Shown here piece after piece: positions 2,589-53,854 of a stretch of DNA of 64,000 nt. The stretch is from Nitrosomonas ureae (GTDB taxonomy: Bacteria; Pseudomonadota; Gammaproteobacteria; Burkholderiales; Nitrosomonadaceae): positions 1 through 64,000 of the forward strand of contig NZ_FNUX01000004.1 in the NCBI RefSeq assembly GCF_900108305.1, written 5' to 3'. Numbering within the stretch: the first letter of the stretch is position 1; each line of letters opens with the position of its first letter. The notes under the pieces are model-generated. The model made no database searches, was not told the DNA's origin, and worked only from the letters and a program-made list of their open reading frames with translations. The translations under genes were made by a program, and so were the position numbers.

Positions 2589-3238
2589 GCAGCTAATTTT
2601 CCTTGTTTAAGTGACAGAATCCGATGCTGCGTGTCGTCCAGCAGAGAGGCATCATGCGTTGCGATCAGGATGGTGACACCTACCTGATTGAACGATTTGA
2701 ACATGGCCATGATATCCCGGGCATATTCAATATCCAGATTACCCGTTGGCTCATCGGCAATCAGGATAGCGGGCCGGTGAACGACTGCACGTGCAATACA
2801 CAGCCGCTGCCTTTCACCGCCTGATAGGGTGATGGGCATGACTTTTTCTTTTTTTAACAGGCCAACTTTATCCAGAGCGGCACGCACTCGGGACATCGCC
2901 GTGTTGTTGTCAAAATCGCTGATTTGCAGCGGCAATAAAACATTTTCAAAAACATTACGGTCAAACAGAAGCTTGTGATCCTGAAAAATGAAACCGATCT
3001 TGCGTCTTAAATAGGGAATTGCGGCAGATTTGAGTTGGGCGATATTTTGCCCGCTGATTGCGATTACGCCGGAAGTCGGGCGTTCTATTGCAGCAATCAG
3101 CTTTAACAGTGTGCTTTTACCGGCACCTGAATGACCGGTTAAAAATACCATTTCGCCGGACTCCACCTCAAGTTCAACGTTGTTCAGAGCAATGTAGCCG
3201 TCGGGATAACGCTTGGAGACATTCTTGAAAGTAATCAT
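2585..3238 (-). CDS. ftsE: Cell division ATP-binding protein FtsE
   Basis: FtsE is the ATPase subunit of the FtsEX complex. From the chosen start (M-I-T-F-K-N-V-S-K-R-Y) the product is 217 residues, the normal length. Motifs are Walker A G-H-S-G-A-G-K-S-T near residue 35, the ABC signature L-S-G-G-E-R-Q-R near 137 and Walker [13 protein letters not shown] near 157. The frame is open upstream to an ATG at 3298 inside ftsY, but that would add 20 residues not seen in the family. I therefore prefer 3238, although no strong ribosome site precedes it. Confidence 0.95.
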   Translation of the reverse strand: MITFKNVSKRYPDGYIALNNVELEVESGEMVFLTGHSGAGKSTLLKLIAAIERPTSGVIAISGQNIAQLKSAAIPYLRRKIGFIFQDHKLLFDRNVFENVLLPLQISDFDNNTAMSRVRAALDKVGLLKKEKVMPITLSGGERQRLCIARAVVHRPAILIADEPTGNLDIEYARDIMAMFKSFNQVGVTILIATHDASLLDDTQHRILSLKQGKLAA

Positions 3239-4362: not shown

Positions 4363-5766
4363 ATGATATCTGATTACCGTATCACTTTTTTTTGCATTTT
4401 TTCAATTTGTGGATTTTTGTTGGTGGTCAATCCGCTGGCTTCATCATCGGCATTTGCCAATCCGCATGAGTATGTGCTCGATAATGGCCTTAAATTGATT
4501 GTAAAACAAGATCATCGTTCACCGGTTGTGGTGACGCAAATCTGGTACAAGGCGGGCAGCATTGATGAAGTCAATGGTGTAACCGGTGTTGCGCATGTTC
4601 TGGAGCATATGATGTTCAAAGGCACTGAGAAAGTCCCCAATGGTGAGTTCTCAAAAAAAATTGCAGCAGCCGGAGGGCGTGAGAATGCTTTCACGAGTTA
4701 CGATTACACTGCTTATTATCAACAATTGCATAAAGACCATTTACCGATGGCGATGGAACTGGAAGCGGATCGAATGCGCAATCTCATTTTAACCAAAGAA
4801 GAATTTGATAAGGAAATCAAGGTGGTGATGGAGGAAAGAAGATTGCGTACGGATGACCAGGCGCGTTCGTTACTGTATGAAAAAATGATGGCTGTTGCTT
4901 TTCAGTCTCACCCTTACAAGAATCCGATCATTGGCTGGATGAATGATCTGGAAAATATGAGAGTGGAAGATACGCAGGAATGGTATGACCGCTGGTACGC
5001 GCCTAATAATGCAACCTTGGTTGTCGTCGGGGATGTTGATGCAGATGAGGTGTTTCGTCTAGCAAAAAAATACTACGGTTCGATTCAATCACACTCTTTA
5101 TTCACGATCGATGCTCGTAAACCACAGACCGAACCACCGCAATTAGGCACTAAACGGATAACCATCAAGGCATCGGCAGAATTGCCTTATCTCATCATGG
5201 GATTTCATGCGCCTGCGATTAAAAATGTTAATGAAGATTGGGAACCCTATGCGTTGGAAATATTGGAAGGGGTGCTGGATGGTCATGCTTCAGCCAGGTT
5301 GAGCAAGTCATTAGTGCGGGAAAGTCAAATCGCTAATTCTGCCAGTGCCGGTTATGGTGCGATTGCGCGCGGCCCAAGCATTTTTTTTCTGAGTGCAGTA
5401 CCTGGCACGGGCAAAACAGTAGCTGAATTGGAGCAGGCGCTGCGTTCCGAGATCGAGAAAATTATTCAAGGAGGTGTTACGGAAGAAGAGCTGAACCGAG
5501 TGAAGGCGCAGGTAATTGCGGGTCATGTGTATCAACGGGATTCGACTTTTTCTCAAGCTATGCAGCTGGGTAGATTGGAGAGTACAGGATTATCTTATCG
5601 TGATACGGATACCATTCTGGATAAGTTGAAAGCGGTTACTGCTGAACAGATACGTGATGTGACAAAAAAATATTTTACTGATGAGGGTTTGACCGTCGCG
5701 ATATTGGATCCGCAGCCACTGGAACAGAAAGCTCCGAAAAAAATACCCAGTGGTTTAAGACACTAG
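4363..5766 (+). CDS. M16 family zinc protease (pitrilysin-like), periplasmic
   Basis: The product from the chosen ATG is 467 residues. It begins with a signal peptide ending near S-S-A-F-A-N. The inverted zinc motif H-V-L-E-H is at residues 78-82, with the third zinc ligand E in the V-V-M-E-E-R-R-L-R segment near 157. The second, non-catalytic half of the M16 fold includes the usual R-x-x-x-Y-x region. The longer open frame reaching back to 4102 lies over ftsY on the other strand and is not used. In many proteobacteria this gene is followed by a second M16 paralogue without the zinc motif. None follows here, so this enzyme may act alone or pair with a distant gene. The natural substrate is unknown. 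Confidence 0.9.
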   Translation: MISDYRITFFCIFSICGFLLVVNPLASSSAFANPHEYVLDNGLKLIVKQDHRSPVVVTQIWYKAGSIDEVNGVTGVAHVLEHMMFKGTEKVPNGEFSKKIAAAGGRENAFTSYDYTAYYQQLHKDHLPMAMELEADRMRNLILTKEEFDKEIKVVMEERRLRTDDQARSLLYEKMMAVAFQSHPYKNPIIGWMNDLENMRVEDTQEWYDRWYAPNNATLVVVGDVDADEVFRLAKKYYGSIQSHSLFTIDARKPQTEPPQLGTKRITIKASAELPYLIMGFHAPAIKNVNEDWEPYALEILEGVLDGHASARLSKSLVRESQIANSASAGYGAIARGPSIFFLSAVPGTGKTVAELEQALRSEIEKIIQGGVTEEELNRVKAQVIAGHVYQRDSTFSQAMQLGRLESTGLSYRDTDTILDKLKAVTAEQIRDVTKKYFTDEGLTVAILDPQPLEQKAPKKIPSGLRH

Positions 5767-49187: not shown

Positions 49188-49727
49188 CTATGCGCTATAT
49201 GCCTGCAACTGTTTCAAATCTGCAATCACTGCGGAGGAATTGTGCGCGGCACTAGCCGACAAATACATGCGTGCAATTTTTCCGTGCGGATCGATTAAAA
49301 ATGTATTGCGCCTGGCAAACTTGATAATGCCCAGATTAATAAGCGAATAATATCGAGCGGCCGTTTCCGCGGTGGTATCCGCCAATAGCGGAAATTGCAG
49401 ATGAAATTTTTGAGCAAATTCTGCATGACTGTTTGTATCATCCACACTCACGCCAATCACTTCGGCATCCAGCTCTGTCAATTGCTGAAGGCTATCACGA
49501 AAAGTGCAAGCTTGCTTGGTGCACCCGGGCGTATCGTCTTTCGGATAAAAATATAATGCCAGCCACTTACCCTGAAAGTCTGCCAGAGTATGTATTTTTC
49601 CAAATTGATCCATCAGTTTGAATTCAGGTGCAGGCTGTCCCAGCTTTAGTGCTTTTTGAGTTGTGGAAAAGAACCAGAACATGAAGCCCACCGCGATAAT
49701 CGACAAGATAATGGCTAACCATTCCAT
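49188..49727 (-). CDS. Membrane-anchored thiol peroxidase, Bcp/PrxQ type
   Basis: From M-E-W-L-A-I-I the 179-residue product starts with a membrane anchor (about 4-21) and then carries a full AhpC/Bcp domain. The peroxidatic motif is D-T-P-G-C-T-K-Q-A-C, with C69 peroxidatic and C74 resolving in C-x4-C, as in BCP/PrxQ enzymes. Membrane anchoring is unusual for a family that is mostly cytoplasmic. The frame is open back to 49802, but the additional residues are not family-like. The transposon at 49827 lies just upstream of this gene's promoter region. Confidence 0.88.
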   Translation of the reverse strand: MEWLAIILSIIAVGFMFWFFSTTQKALKLGQPAPEFKLMDQFGKIHTLADFQGKWLALYFYPKDDTPGCTKQACTFRDSLQQLTELDAEVIGVSVDDTNSHAEFAQKFHLQFPLLADTTAETAARYYSLINLGIIKFARRNTFLIDPHGKIARMYLSASAAHNSSAVIADLKQLQAYSA

Positions 49728-49818
49728 AATACTTTCATCCTCATTCGTTATATATATGTCGTACAGATCAAGGCCGCACTCATCAGTCGACCAGAGGAAC
49801 ACCCTGTTTAAAATGACT

Positions 49819-49826
49819 TGTCAATT
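49819..49826. repeat. Target-site duplication, left copy
   Basis: TGTCAATT directly precedes the left terminal repeat of the transposon and is identical to 53035-53042. Confidence 0.95.
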
Positions 49827-49875
49827 GGTAGTGTCTCAGTTTGAAATCTGCTGCACTTGAACTTGTTTGCATCAA

Positions 49876-49888
49876 TGCTATCATAGCA
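49876..49888. promoter_or_regulatory. Palindrome upstream of the small motif protein
   Basis: TGCTATCATAGCA is a perfect 6+1+6 palindrome that ends two bases before the ATG at 49891. It overlaps the place of a ribosome site and may be an operator or translational control site. Confidence 0.5.
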
Positions 49889-49890
49889 GT

Positions 49891-50139
49891 ATGAGTAAAA
49901 GACCTAAAAATTTAGACTTAAATCAACTGGCAAAGTGCATTGTAGACGAAGCTATTGGTGAGATTGAACCAGAACCAGAAATAGATGAAAACAAAAAAGC
50001 CGCCATCGAATCAGGGCGGCTTGGTGGTCTTAAGGGTGGCAAAGCTAGGGCAGGTAAATTAACGCCAGAAGAGCGTTCAGATATTGCTAAAAATGCTGCT
50101 AATTCTCGCTGGGGAGATCATAATACGGAAAAAGATTAA
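49891..50139 (+). CDS. Small GGKARA-motif protein of the transposon
   Basis: This 82-residue protein has an acidic N-terminal half. The C-terminal motif K-G-G-K-A-R-A-G-K-L-T-P-E-E-R is followed by S-D-I-A-K-N-A-A-N-S-R-W-G. The same motif occurs near the N terminus of the P63C protein encoded opposite (50099-51130), and the two genes overlap tail to tail by 41 bases. The motif is common in small phage and mobile-element proteins and may be nucleic-acid binding; its function is not established. Confidence 0.7.
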   Translation: MSKRPKNLDLNQLAKCIVDEAIGEIEPEPEIDENKKAAIESGRLGGLKGGKARAGKLTPEERSDIAKNAANSRWGDHNTEKD

Positions 50140-51130
50140 TAGTTGTTCCCTTCTTTGGCAGGATATCGTCCATCATGCTCATAAAATGAATCCATTTGTT
50201 ACCAGGCTTATTTAAACAAGCTCTTTGCAAAGCTAAGATTGTAAACATTTGTTGAGAGAATAATTTATCTCCAGCCTCATTATTTAACCATTCATGATGT
50301 TTTCTAGCTCTATGTCCTTTTTCATTCTTGGGATTTCTATGATTTAACTCCTCTTTCAATCCAGGAATCAGTCGTTCCCAAACCAAGTCATTGGTATATG
50401 TACCAACAACGCTAAATCTATTCTTAGCCATCCCAGGCCATTCCCATCCTTTTAACTTATATATGTTTTCATAATATTCATCTGGGAATCTTTTAAACCA
50501 CGCGGCTAAATCTTTTTTTAGAACTTGATCAAAATAGTTTCTTAACCCGTCAGCTGGTCTTAGGTTTTGATAGCCTGTAGCTTCATCAATAAGAGCAACA
50601 ATACCAGTCTTGGCTAAACCACGCATTATCAATTCGCACTGAGCGGCAATAATGCTCTGTCTTGTTGTTTTTAACACCCCTAATATTCTAGCTTCCAACA
50701 TTCCTTCACATATATCTACAAGCATTTCTGCATTAAAACCGGCAATTATTCGACCTTGATATCTGCGTTTTTTAGGGAAAAAGTGGTCCTGGTTCTTGTG
50801 TTTATATATCAATGGCTTGAGTGTGTTGTTGCTTAATAATCTAGTCAATCGTGATCCAGGCTTTTGGCCGCTTTTTGGTAAATCCTCATCTACCAATTTC
50901 AGGATTTCTTGCATCCCTCTGCCAGCTATTAAACGCTCTCCGTCTTCTGTCACATAACAATCAACCTCTACGCCGCCAAGAGTTAATTTAGCACCGAGCA
51001 AGACTGTCGTCATAGATTTATCCCATTTTGAGTTTGCAGCATTTTTAGCAATATTGCTTCGTTCTTCAGGAGACAAAGATGCGGCTCTTGCTTTGCCGCC
51101 TTTTGATTTAGAGTCAGAGTTATTGTCCAT
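50099..51130 (-). CDS. P63C domain protein of the transposon
   Basis: This 343-residue protein begins with a GGKARA...L-S-P-E-E-R-S-N-I-A-K-N-A-A-N-S-K-W motif (about 11-35). A large helical domain follows, recognised as P63C-like by stretches such as I-I-A-G-F-N-A-E-M-L-V-D-I-C-E, R-G-L-A-K-T-G-I-V-A-L-I-D-E-A-T-G-Y-Q and W-F-K-R-F-P-D-E-Y-Y. The P63C domain is known from phage and mobile-element proteins and its role is unknown. The inner ATG at 51130 is preferred over 51142, because GGAG precedes it at the right spacing. Confidence 0.85.
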   Translation of the reverse strand: MDNNSDSKSKGGKARAASLSPEERSNIAKNAANSKWDKSMTTVLLGAKLTLGGVEVDCYVTEDGERLIAGRGMQEILKLVDEDLPKSGQKPGSRLTRLLSNNTLKPLIYKHKNQDHFFPKKRRYQGRIIAGFNAEMLVDICEGMLEARILGVLKTTRQSIIAAQCELIMRGLAKTGIVALIDEATGYQNLRPADGLRNYFDQVLKKDLAAWFKRFPDEYYENIYKLKGWEWPGMAKNRFSVVGTYTNDLVWERLIPGLKEELNHRNPKNEKGHRARKHHEWLNNEAGDKLFSQQMFTILALQRACLNKPGNKWIHFMSMMDDILPKKGTTINLFPYYDLPSEN

Positions 51131-51150
51131 TGCTTGCTCCATTTTTGATT

Positions 51151-51203
51151 GATGCTTGCAATTATATTATCGCAAGCATAAGATGTCAAAAAAATAATGC
51201 TTG
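51151..51203. promoter_or_regulatory. Triplicate ATGCTTGC repeat between divergent P63C and transposase genes
   Basis: ATGCTTGC occurs at 51151-51158, as its complement GCAAGCAT at 51171-51178, and again at 51196-51203. The first two form a perfect inverted repeat 20 bases apart, about two helix turns. They lie in the shared promoter region and look like operators for an element-encoded regulator. Confidence 0.6.
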
Positions 51204-51260
51204 CGATTACTGATTTATGATGTATAATTCAAACTGAACTTAATGCTTGAGGGTGATGAG

Positions 51261-52136
51261 ATGAACAAACTATCAATTGAAAAACGCGCAATGATACTTA
51301 CGATGCTTGTTGAAGGTAGTTCAATGCGTTCAGTCTCACGTATTGCTGATGTTTCAATTAATACCGTAACTAAATTGCTGGTTGATGCAGGTATCGTGTG
51401 CGCCGAGTATCAAAATGAGCATTTATTGAATATCAAAAGCAAGCGCGTTCAATGTGATGAGATTTGGTCTTTTTGTTACTCGAAAGAAAAGAATGTATCA
51501 CCAGAAGATAAAGGAATTCTTGGTCATGGCGATGTTTACACCTGGACAGCGATTGATGCAGATACTAAGCTTGCTATTTCATGGTTGGTTGGTCGACGTG
51601 ATTATGAGTATGCAGAAGAGTTTATTGGTGATCTAGCAAGCCGTTTAAGTGATCGTATTCAGTTAACTAGCGATGGTTATGGATGCTACATCAATGCAGT
51701 AGAAAAGATGTTTGGTGGTATGGTTGATTATGCAATGCTGGTCAAGATTTACGGTGAAGAGAATAAAAGCCAAAAACGTTACAGCCCAGCATCATTTGTT
51801 AGCTCAGAAAGACGTGTAATGGCTGGTAATCCTGATATGGACTATGTATCAACAAGCTATGTAGAACGCAACAATTTAACCATGCGTATGGGTATGCGTA
51901 GATTTACAAGATTAACAAATGGATTCAGCAAAAAGATTGAAAACTTAGCTCATGCAGTGGCATTGCATTTTATGCATTATAATTTTGTTCGGATTCACAA
52001 AACATTGAAAACCTCTCCCGCAATGGCCGCAGGTGTTACTAATACTCTTTGGTCAATGAATGATGTTGTTGCTTTGATTGATGCAAAAGAAGAATTGAAA
52101 GATAGAAGTAGGGGGAAATATAAAACAAGGATATAA
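51261..52136 (+). CDS. IS1-like DDE transposase
   Basis: The 291-residue product has an N-terminal helix-turn-helix (S-M-R-S-V-S-R-I-A-D-V-S-I-N-T-V-T-K-L-L, about 20-40). A DDE core follows: V-Q-C-D-E-I-W-S-F-C, T-A-I-D-A-D-T-K-L, and Y-V-E-R-N-N-L-T-M-R with the catalytic glutamate. The protein type is the long, single-frame transposase commonly annotated as IS1 family. The 8-bp duplication fits that family (8-9 bp). The ATG at 51261 has GAGG upstream; a start at 51243 is possible. Confidence 0.9.
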   Translation: MNKLSIEKRAMILTMLVEGSSMRSVSRIADVSINTVTKLLVDAGIVCAEYQNEHLLNIKSKRVQCDEIWSFCYSKEKNVSPEDKGILGHGDVYTWTAIDADTKLAISWLVGRRDYEYAEEFIGDLASRLSDRIQLTSDGYGCYINAVEKMFGGMVDYAMLVKIYGEENKSQKRYSPASFVSSERRVMAGNPDMDYVSTSYVERNNLTMRMGMRRFTRLTNGFSKKIENLAHAVALHFMHYNFVRIHKTLKTSPAMAAGVTNTLWSMNDVVALIDAKEELKDRSRGKYKTRI

Positions 52137-52137
52137 G

Positions 52138-52470
52138 TTATTTATTCGTCTTTTCGTTATTTGAATTTCTTTGAAACCATCCATCAACAATTTTAGTTAT
52201 TATTATAACTACATTATCAACCCCGCATTTATCAGCAAGCGCCAATAATCCAAATAATTCAAGTATCATAATTGCAATCGGGCCTCCCCAAGATGGCATA
52301 TGAATAAAAGCGATGATATTAATGATTATCATCATCGCTAAAACCCAATAAAAACGCTCTTCTAAAATACTGTTCTCTAAATCCTGAACTTTTGTTTCTA
52401 ATTCTTGAATTATAATGTCTTTCTGACTGGGTATGTCATTGCTTTTAAGTTTATCAAACCCATCTGCCAT
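52138..52470 (-). CDS. Small membrane protein, candidate toxin of a PanTA-like module
   Basis: This 110-residue protein has a polar N terminus with a short predicted coiled coil (about 18-38; E-L-E-T-K-V-Q-D-L-E-N-S-I). Two membrane segments follow (about 42-58 and 64-84), then an amphipathic tail. Its ATG overlaps the stop of the Panacea gene as TGATG, so the two are translationally coupled with the antitoxin first. Small membrane proteins are among the toxins known to pair with Panacea antitoxins. The toxin assignment is inference. Confidence 0.7.
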   Translation of the reverse strand: MADGFDKLKSNDIPSQKDIIIQELETKVQDLENSILEERFYWVLAMMIIINIIAFIHMPSWGGPIAIMILELFGLLALADKCGVDNVVIIITKIVDGWFQRNSNNEKTNK

Positions 52471-52901
52471 CAGAGATTATTATATTCATTAATTATTTTT
52501 TCATTCGGTATGGGAACATTCGCTCCTCTTATAAATGTCGTATCCCATGCCCCGTTTACTCTATGCGTCAGAGTAATTAAAGATCCGGGAGGAAAATCAG
52601 AAAATTGTTCTGCCGCCTCTTTTATAATTCTAGATTCTTCTCCCTCAGTCCATATTTTATTTCTATTAAAAACATCTTGCACTGGTTTATTGCCAAAAAA
52701 CTTAACCTTATAATACAAGCTAGGCAACACAGGCCCATATTCCCATGATTGGAATATTTCATCAATCAATGGCGAACCGTTATTCTCTCCCATGTGAACC
52801 ATATGGGCAAGATACAATATCTTTTGCATCTGGAGATTTGATAGTTTCCATCCAGAATAATGGCCAAGGGTTTTCGCCGCATCAAATACTGATATAGTCA
52901 T
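52470..52901 (-). CDS. Panacea (DUF4065, SocA-like) domain protein, candidate antitoxin
   Basis: This 143-residue protein is a stand-alone Panacea domain. It starts with V-F-D-A-A-K-T-L and carries the hallmark L-S-N-L-Q-M-Q-K-I-L-Y-L-A-H (about 20-33). P-L-I-D-E-I-F-Q-S-W-E-Y-G-P-V-L-P-S-L-Y follows (about 44-63). This domain acts as a promiscuous antitoxin that neutralises several unrelated toxin types. It leads a two-gene operon with the small membrane protein, in the usual antitoxin-first order. Confidence 0.88.
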   Translation of the reverse strand: MTISVFDAAKTLGHYSGWKLSNLQMQKILYLAHMVHMGENNGSPLIDEIFQSWEYGPVLPSLYYKVKFFGNKPVQDVFNRNKIWTEGEESRIIKEAAEQFSDFPPGSLITLTHRVNGAWDTTFIRGANVPIPNEKIINEYNNL

Positions 52902-53034
52902 TTTTCACCCTCCATAATTCTAATACAGCAATTAATTATTATTTATGTATTCTAAGGAATCTATCACGGAATAGCTAATTAAAGTTGTATATGGGGGTTA
53001 TTACAAAATTTTAAATTCAAACCGAGACACTACC

Positions 53035-53042
53035 TGTCAATT
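53035..53042. repeat. Target-site duplication, right copy
   Basis: TGTCAATT directly follows the right terminal repeat of the transposon and matches 49819-49826. Confidence 0.95.
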
Positions 53043-53854
53043 GCCTTTCTTGCGAGGAAGTGATAGTTTGGGCAAGATTCCATACGCATCACAACAAGTA
53101 GCAATTCAATAATACTGATGCCTAATTCATGACCAAAGAGTAAAACAAAAGTTTCAAAGGCATGTGTGTGAATACCATCAAAAATATGATTGAGCAGATT
53201 AAATTAAGTATGCTGGTAATGTTCTCATGCTTCTCCGGAATCGCCCCCTGAGAATGTAAAAAAAAACGCCTCATTTCAATTTTTGTTGCAGCATGCCCAT
53301 GCGTGAACCTCGCCTTATAGTTCAGTCTACTGGAAACCTGGAATTATGCATCGCTTATAGTTGTTCAGAGTGAGCATTGCGGAATGCTGGCACTGGTGTG
53401 TGAATTTCTTTGACGAATTGGCCTGATCGCTTAATTAATCTCATCGTCATGTATTTTTCGAGTCACGCTGAATCGCGTGCAGCATTGAAATCAGGGGAAA
53501 TCGGTTTCCTTGAAATGCAACGAATATTGCTCATCAGATTGCATTAACGGCTCCATCAAGGTGGATTTTCCTGACCTTGAGGTTTCAAAGATCACAATAA
53601 CTAAAAAACAAGAGAAATTTCTTCTTGGTATCTAAGAAAATGATTAAACTAACTTTTTATAAATTACGTATGACTAATTTTGGTACTGAATGGTGTCATT
53701 TATTTGCGATCAAAGAAACTGAATTTCGTTTTAACGGGCGGCGTGATAATCTTGTACCTTACAAGACTCGAGTGGTTAAATTTCTGTTTCCTTTAGCTTC
53801 ATAATATCGGTTGAAAGATAAAACGGGCTATTACAAACACTATCATTTCATCCA
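53043..53854. other. Intergenic region with IS remnant
   Basis: About 810 bases lie between the transposon and ydbH. No intact gene is seen. The distal part holds a possible IS1595-type transposase remnant (see 53640-53804); the rest shows broken frames and may be decayed mobile DNA. Confidence 0.5.
53640..53804 (+). pseudogene. Possible C-terminal remnant of an IS1595-type transposase
   Basis: A 54-residue frame includes K-E-T-E-F-R-F-N-G-R-R-D-N-L. This resembles the conserved C-terminal K-E-x-E-W-R-F-N-x-R-x-D segment of IS1595-type transposases. Upstream parts are not recognisable, so it is at best a fragment. Confidence 0.4.

Follow-up and report, generated by a model that had tools for sequence, protein, structure and literature searches.

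What kind of unit is the compact gene group at positions 49827-53034 of a 64,000-nucleotide stretch of the Nitrosomonas ureae genome (positions 1 to 64,000 of contig NZ_FNUX01000004.1; hereafter the window), and what are the genes that accompany its transposase doing there? A preliminary description had presented it as a complete IS1-like transposon, of a kind not previously described, with P63C and Panacea toxin-antitoxin-like genes as passengers. We find that it is a complete inserted element, and that it probably belongs to a family of IS1-related "transporter" insertion sequences (IS) with a cassette-exchange mechanism. Comparison with its relatives indicates that their common core is a left end, a small gene encoding a GGKARA-motif protein (GG gene), the transposase gene and a right end, with cassettes in one or both of two places, slot L and slot R.

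The element spans 3,208 bp. Its terminal inverted repeats (left, GGTAGTGTCTCAGTTTGAA, 49827-49845, forward strand; right, 53016-53034, reverse strand) are identical at 18 of 19 positions and resemble the ends of the bounded relatives described below, and TGTCAATT directly abuts both ends as a perfect 8-bp direct duplication (49819-49826 and 53035-53042). All five genes in between have intact reading frames, so the preliminary description was right in its repeats with one mismatch, its perfect duplication and its five genes. The check for an empty site that it had proposed was also successful. A query made of both flanks joined, with one TGTCAATT deleted, matches 30 of 125 genomes of the window's family (own genome included); of 11 relatives aligned at the junction, the 10 other than L108 extend across it, and in genome G090 (L107) a single TGTCAATT lies exactly at the junction of the uninterrupted site (AATGACTTGTCAATT followed by GCCTTT), the other aligned relatives being more diverged. 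The insertion is therefore real, and 49827-53034 is confirmed as a complete inserted element. It is the sole copy in the 3.19-Mb assembly. A 680-bp inverted pair on contig C8 (at most three mismatches) was considered as a second, non-autonomous copy and rejected, its ends being weak and without a matching duplication; a 573-bp inverted end pair in genome G102 was rejected likewise. No Rfam match was found across 49700-53200.

Relatives were collected in two sets. A transposase scan of genome contigs gave at least 595 pattern matches and at least 574 relatives, of which the best 80 loci together with the window formed a first set of 81; like ends were found at 64 of these, and at 59 of the 64 the two 8-bp copies are identical (58) or differ at a single position. 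The second set of 96 loci comprised 80 of 213 relatives on viral contigs, plus 16 loci selected from genomes, plasmids and a single phage. Its bounding was made without an end consensus; 51 loci passed, and 47 were kept after removal of two with unlike, probably spurious ends and two near-duplicates. The 177 transposase loci examined thus yielded 106 non-redundant bounded elements (59 + 47) of 1,323 to 4,416 bp, of which 103 have an exact 8-bp duplication (58 in the first set, window included, and 45 in the second), without an obvious target motif. Fifteen genome loci (L220, L222-L235) and most partial matches in family genomes are excluded from this count. The elements are widespread, mostly in proteobacteria, but at low prevalence. 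Transposase matches were obtained in 13 of the 125 family genomes at E <= 0.001 (some weak or partial), in 6 of 369 genomes of the class at 1e-40 and in 16 of 398 genomes of the phylum at 1e-50, each count including the window's own genome.

The first gene of the window element (49891-50139, forward strand) encodes an 82-amino-acid (aa) protein with the motif GGLKGGKARAxxLTPEERxxIAKxAAxxRW. The preliminary description had counted it as cargo; sequence comparison indicates instead that it is a conserved core gene. A six-frame search with a GG profile (1e-5) matches 103 of 106 elements versus 1 of 106 flanks, with 320,685 bases searched inside the elements and nearly double that, 600,175, in the flanks. 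The profile was built from 56 first-set proteins, and the first-set matches are therefore partly by construction; the second set is independent of it, and 44 of its 47 elements match. The gene usually lies directly after the left end (median start 79 bp), on the opposite strand in L194. Moreover, GG and transposase distances are correlated (Mantel r 0.48, 0 of 999 permutations, n=96), the corresponding values being r -0.11 for P63C (881 of 999, n=17) and r 0.06 for a 161-aa partner of XRE-ImmA genes (n=17). The terminal repeats bound the transposase alone in none of the 106 elements, an arrangement that the preliminary description would have taken as a sign of chance neighbourhood. Two elements without any cargo open reading frame (ORF) of at least 80 aa, L161 (1,323 bp) and L205 (1,365 bp), retain the GG gene as well as the transposase; in L161 the GG frame appears degraded towards its end.

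A GG match is present in 14 of the 125 family genomes and extends over most of the profile in 12; an end-like sequence (at most three mismatches) lies shortly upstream in 11 of the 12, and none was found for G038. In genome G092, eight exact end sequences are present (four no more than 150 bp from the start of a contig), together with a GG gene and no transposase match, probably representing a multicopy element lost in assembly. In genome G023, as in G092, copies are interrupted by contig ends. Some GG relatives are named "histone H1" by NCBI. The predicted structure of the GG protein consists of a few helices (pLDDT 78, pTM 0.36) and no PDB match at E <= 0.001. A tblastn search of plasmids with this protein gave no match, but was too insensitive, since at the GG place of L135, a plasmid element, a "histone H1" is annotated. 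A general palindrome before the GG gene was considered and rejected, its frequency (20 of 58 versus 16.1 expected) not being meaningful; the window element and L096 share TGCTATCATAGCA at this position.

The transposase gene (51258-52136, forward strand; alternative in-frame start at 51243) encodes 292 aa, and its candidate catalytic residues, assigned by inference as D67, D139 and E203, are invariant in all 59 aligned sequences. The protein scores 25.6 bits against Pfam DDE_Tnp_IS1 (PF03400, cut-off 24.1), 54.3 bits against NCBIfam IS1 (NF033558, below the cut-off of 100) and 17 bits against NCBIfam IS1595 (NF033547, below the cut-off of 75). The IS1 family makes 8-9 bp target duplications and has ends starting with GG, and IS1 itself typically has overlapping insA and insB frames joined via a frameshift. 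The window element resembles IS1 and IS1595 in its DDE transposase with weak IS1 similarity, its 8-bp duplication and its ends (GGTAGTG...), and several plasmid relatives of the transposase are annotated as "IS1 family transposase". In contrast, the transposase here is one uninterrupted frame of 292-297 aa, with no two-frame arrangement, and is accompanied by a constant GG gene and two cargo slots. The label "IS1-like" thus appears to fit only loosely, being supported by the Pfam score and not by the NCBIfam score. A transposase promoter-like site (TTGCGA-16-TATAAT, 51201-51228, forward strand), a consensus match only, carries at its -10 the inner decamer of the terminal repeat (TTCAAACTGA, 51228-51237, reverse strand), a possible autoregulatory site of the transposase. 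This decamer is found upstream of the transposase in 17 of 106 elements versus 1.1 expected, most elements being without it.

The position of the slots is given by the sister element L002, with which the window element is alignable only over positions 1-274, 1371-2302 and 3168-3208 (the last 41 bp) of the element. Similarity between the window element and L002 breaks off, to within a few bases, where transposase and repeat meet, the window element's own right repeat lying about 880 bp beyond. From these blocks, slot L extends from the GG gene to the transposase promoter and slot R from the transposase to the right end. A distance of 8-25 bp separates the transposase stop from the right end in 60 of 106 elements (exactly 9 bp in 52, a spacing at which the gene extends into the right repeat); in the other 46 the distance exceeds 150 bp, and slot R is occupied.

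Six Nitrosomonas elements were compared, with transposases about 85-93% identical to that of the window. Whereas the window element has P63C in slot L and a Panacea pair in slot R, L002 and, as judged from its ORFs, L287 have XRE-ImmA and a HigB-like gene in slot L and an empty slot R. L286 combines XRE-ImmA with HicA (above the Pfam cut-off) and a gene labelled HicB-like from its sequence and place, L298 combines P63C with PemK (above the Pfam cut-off; flanking 8-mers do not match), and L096 combines P63C with two predicted small membrane proteins and has a broken transposase. Different toxin-antitoxin genes thus occupy slot R of what is nearly one vehicle, and the comparisons indicate that cassettes change much faster than the core. 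L096/L296, in the single-contig genome G025, has perfect ends and duplication around a transposase broken by stops, and a second, lone end lies at 957303.

In the window element, slot R holds two reverse-strand genes, one coding for a Panacea (SocA-like) antitoxin PanA of 143 aa (52470-52901; 61.0 bits against SocA_Panacea PF13274, cut-off 25.7) and the other, whose start it overlaps, for a 110-aa protein with two predicted membrane segments (52138-52470). This candidate toxin has nine homologues among the matches listed, itself included. Bordetella phage IFTN6 encodes the two in the same order, PanA (41% identity) first and then a membrane-protein homologue (E 1.8e-16); viral-contig searches with both proteins found no relatives. 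According to the preliminary description, cargo order recurring outside any element would argue for chance neighbourhood. The pair does recur, but its presence in the same order on a phage marks it as a module of its own rather than as a chance neighbourhood. PanT toxins depolarise membranes, and PanAT pairs occur close to transposase genes, according to the available part of Kurata 2022 (PMC8832971). Compared with what that part describes, the present pair is alike in having a Panacea antitoxin beside a small membrane protein, and differs in lying inside a defined element and in that the partner has no match in four family libraries. From its sequence features, the pair is most plausibly read as a membrane toxin kept in check by PanA. 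Another Panacea pair near a transposition gene was observed on a Shewanella plasmid (L238, 1-2342), where PanA and a small two-segment membrane partner lie directly beside a TnsA-like gene. PDB sequence searches with the transposase, P63C, PanA and the HicA-like, HicB-like and PemK-like proteins gave nothing usable.

Across the family, a cargo ORF of at least 80 aa is present in 104 of 106 elements. Local clustering of the 241 such ORFs identified an XRE-ImmA/IrrE (Peptidase_M78) gene in 35 elements and a full-length P63C in 18, both common in slot L, as well as a ClpP/SDH-like gene in seven elements and an nSTAND gene in five; a nineteenth member of the P63C cluster is a 195-aa ORF beside XRE-ImmA in L072. 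Clusters K2 (161 aa, 17 elements) and K3 (205 aa, 8 elements) are partners of XRE-ImmA; one representative of each was scanned, with no Pfam or PADLOC match, and they are candidate new toxins. Family scans covered 134 first-set ORFs (of 158 chosen) and 107 second-set ORFs, with the 25 most frequent families per scan listed, and found Peptidase_M78 in 19 and 13 and the P63C domain in 12 and 7 ORFs of the two sets, respectively.

Could this cargo mainly be host phage defence (RosmerTA, PD-Lambda-2, PanAT, Abi-like), with the element as its vehicle in the manner of the larger Tn7-like transposons? We consider this possible but short of probable. It is favoured by PADLOC models for RmrA, which match up to 20 first-set and 10 second-set cargo ORFs, and for PD-Lambda-2_B, with 14 and 12 (E limits 0.01 and 0.001), by RmrT in 4 of 134 first-set ORFs, and by PD-T4-5-like, NYN, nSTAND and Abi_2 matches among the cargo. 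However, these matches are family-level and do not prove protection, and PADLOC matches none of the window element's five proteins (0/5). Because toxin-antitoxin genes can do both jobs, a defensive role is compatible with the transporter family proposed here.

A second alternative concerns the gene in slot L of the window element, which encodes a P63C-domain protein of 347 aa with its own N-terminal GGKARA motif (50099-51142, reverse strand). It scores 92.5 bits against PF10546 and 301 bits against phrog_2384 over residues 8-337, with a weak match to the phage antirepressor Ant, and its homologues on phages and plasmids amount to 63 records with a match; its predicted structure (pLDDT 81.6) has no PDB match at E <= 0.001. 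The protein is more likely a phage-type regulator than a toxin-antitoxin member, so that of the passengers first described as toxin-antitoxin-like the Panacea antitoxin with its small membrane protein stands and P63C probably does not. A 74-nt imperfect inverted repeat (70%; 50032-50105 and 51030-51103), derived from the GGKARA motifs of the GG gene and P63C, flanks the P63C cassette and could permit its inversion or recombination.

A heptamer search revealed four boxes (TGCTTGC or its complement; 51131-51137, 51153-51159, 51172-51178 and 51198-51204) surrounding a perfect P63C promoter-like site (TTGACA-17-TATAAT, 12/12, 51161-51189, reverse strand; a consensus match only), the fourth covering the -35 of the transposase promoter-like site. 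These four of the 15 heptamers in the window fall within 74 bp, the heptamer not being in excess overall; promoter-like sites in the P63C-transposase region as a whole are not in excess either (11 versus 13.0 in shuffles). At least one box lies within 200 nt upstream of P63C in 15 of 18 elements (0.4 expected from shuffles), the GCAAGCA/TGCTTGC heptamers often being near -85, -62, -30 and -7. Outside elements, boxes precede seven of the eight P63C genes examined from those 63 records (0.10 expected), on three phages and five plasmids ranging from Deinococcus to a Salmonella phage (L239, L240 and L303-L307; L302 has no box). Two of the plasmid genes (L303, L306) lie next to genes for a restriction endonuclease and a DNA methyltransferase. 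This arrangement predicts that P63C is an autoregulated DNA-binding protein which here may also repress the transposase.

The phage-type regulators might thus be there for transposition control, as exchangeable repressors silencing the transposase until damage or infection. XRE-ImmA pairs control some mobile elements, the boxes of the window element cover both the P63C promoter-like site and the transposase -35, and in 15 of 18 elements transcription of P63C runs away from the transposase gene, all of which speaks for this possibility. Nonetheless, only 6 of the 15 divergent P63C elements have a box on or within the predicted transposase promoter (raw count, window included), which makes the predicted transposase repression weaker than autoregulation, no 7-mer box is found upstream of XRE-ImmA genes (0/35), and the core-only elements manage without P63C or XRE-ImmA. 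We are therefore rather doubtful of transposition control as the explanation of these genes.

It is unlikely, in our judgement, that the slots are merely harmless insertion places and the cargo a random collection of accessory genes without a role for the element. In favour of such passive carriage, 40 of 106 elements have cargo outside the four named classes, 98 of 241 cargo ORFs are singletons, and cargo does not follow the transposase tree. On this tree (104 rows), cargo class requires 52 changes against a shuffled mean of 52.3 (36 of 60 shuffles at or below), with 16 changes for P63C alone (shuffles 16.1) and 30 for XRE-ImmA alone (29.6), and close sisters differ in cargo (L024 versus L134; L027 versus L078). 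Many forks of this tree are unresolved and its terminal branches are long; cassette exchange is fast relative to sampling, and the absolute rate is not given by the tree. On the other hand, the flank control found XRE-ImmA in 37 of 106 elements versus 5 of 106 flanks (all five in the second set), three toxin-antitoxin types occupy one slot of closely related Nitrosomonas elements, and the RmrA and PD-Lambda-2_B models match cargo of both sets. At L134, on an Acidiphilium plasmid, annotated RES and Xre/MbcA toxin-antitoxin genes (4883-5721) abut the right end, essentially outside the element. Finally, that the end repeats and genes only resemble an element by chance, as its single copy in the genome might suggest, is a negligible prospect in view of the perfect duplication, of the uninterrupted site in G090 and of the exact duplications around 102 other bounded elements.

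How such an element might work can be sketched as follows. The transposase would act on both ends and duplicate 8 bp of target, with the GG protein as a transposition cofactor or regulator. P63C would bind the four boxes and repress both itself and the transposase, and PanA would neutralise the membrane protein, such that cells losing the element would suffer and the element would tend to persist. Cassettes would be swapped by recombination between elements via shared core blocks or, alternatively, captured through transposase action on an end that belongs to a neighbouring element. The composite locus L012 (JAJZVW010000009.1, 2577-6014) has an intact inner end behind the transposase, followed by a second cassette and an inverted second GG gene next to the outer end, with the target duplication flanking the outer pair; this layout is as expected if the transposase had used the neighbouring element's end and captured its cassette. 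The same contig also carries a further relative, L073. L047 keeps an inner end-like sequence with three mismatches in 16, and the remaining 44 elements with an occupied slot R have no inner end at a limit of four mismatches. The idea that capture into slot R usually leaves an inner end behind was accordingly rejected. For slot L, recombination via the left and transposase blocks common to the elements would be the simpler route; no recombination junctions were caught among the elements compared. Beyond the exchange of cassettes, we tentatively advance a more specific proposal, in which the GG gene and transposase form an obligatory core, slot L accepts phage-derived regulators that can replace one another (P63C with its TGCTTGC operator, XRE-ImmA) and gate the transposase, slot R takes interchangeable toxin-antitoxin pairs holding the element, and P63C proteins are an autoregulated repressor family with an identifiable operator in phages, plasmids and transposons.

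Several observations weigh against a cassette-exchanging family of this kind, together with the low count of boxes on transposase promoters. The element is in a single-copy state in its own genome, and inner ends in only 2 of 46 slot-R elements suggest that end capture may be rare. Concerning the sample, 67 of 177 loci (22 in the first set and 45 in the second) were unbounded, in part because contigs end nearby, and were left out of the counts; five of those in the first set have like ends without a matching duplication, and the two second-set loci with unlike ends were bounded by these only. Concerning the core, L208, L214 and L217 have only weaker GG matches, to open frames, and L131 and L212 have a six-frame match but no intact frame. 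XRE-ImmA keeps a weak link with the transposase (Mantel r 0.15, 8 of 999, n=35), and with the long branches of the tree a modest exchange rate could also look random. Three of the 18 element P63C genes are without a 7-mer box, and PanA scores 80.1 bits against the SocA equivalog NF047745, far below the cut-off of 190.

Parts of this organisation have precedents. The term and concept of transporter IS (tIS), IS members with passenger genes, are in print (PMC7986276). Relative to the portion of that article at hand, the present elements are alike in their IS-like ends and transposase enclosing passenger genes, and unlike in that passengers are the rule (104/106), occupy two fixed slots and accompany a conserved non-transposase core gene. 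In Tn3-family transposons, toxin-antitoxin pairs of many types were found in 39 of 190 elements, in a defined place and repeatedly acquired, as stated in the accessible text of Lima-Mendez 2020 (PMC7157771). As judged by that text, varied toxin-antitoxin genes in a defined place are common to both, whereas here the transposase is unrelated, the window element has no resolvase gene, the elements measure 1.3-4.4 kb, and other toxin-antitoxin families occur alongside phage-type P63C and XRE-ImmA genes. Tn7-like transposons have cargo rich in defence genes (PMC8649781, in the part available); defence genes are likewise found in the present cargo, but the machinery is different and each element has one or two cassettes. 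No description of the element family was found in the open-licence full-text literature, ISfinder and TnCentral being outside this comparison, and within that literature the novelty claimed in the preliminary description holds for the family. Toxin-antitoxin cargo as such is known, and the architecture of a core with two slots is apparently undescribed.

A single insertion in N. ureae thereby becomes part of a family whose anatomy, a small core, two slots and rapidly exchanged cargo, can be tested. Its conserved companion gene, sometimes annotated as "histone H1", is now placed in a transposon core, P63C proteins, which are frequent in phages, gain a predicted binding site, and the cargo partners of XRE-ImmA, such as the 161-aa K2, are supplied as candidate new toxins. 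The family suggests that such elements spread and persist through carrying survival modules, and it provides a compact setting in which to ask if transposons are stabilised by toxin-antitoxin pairs.

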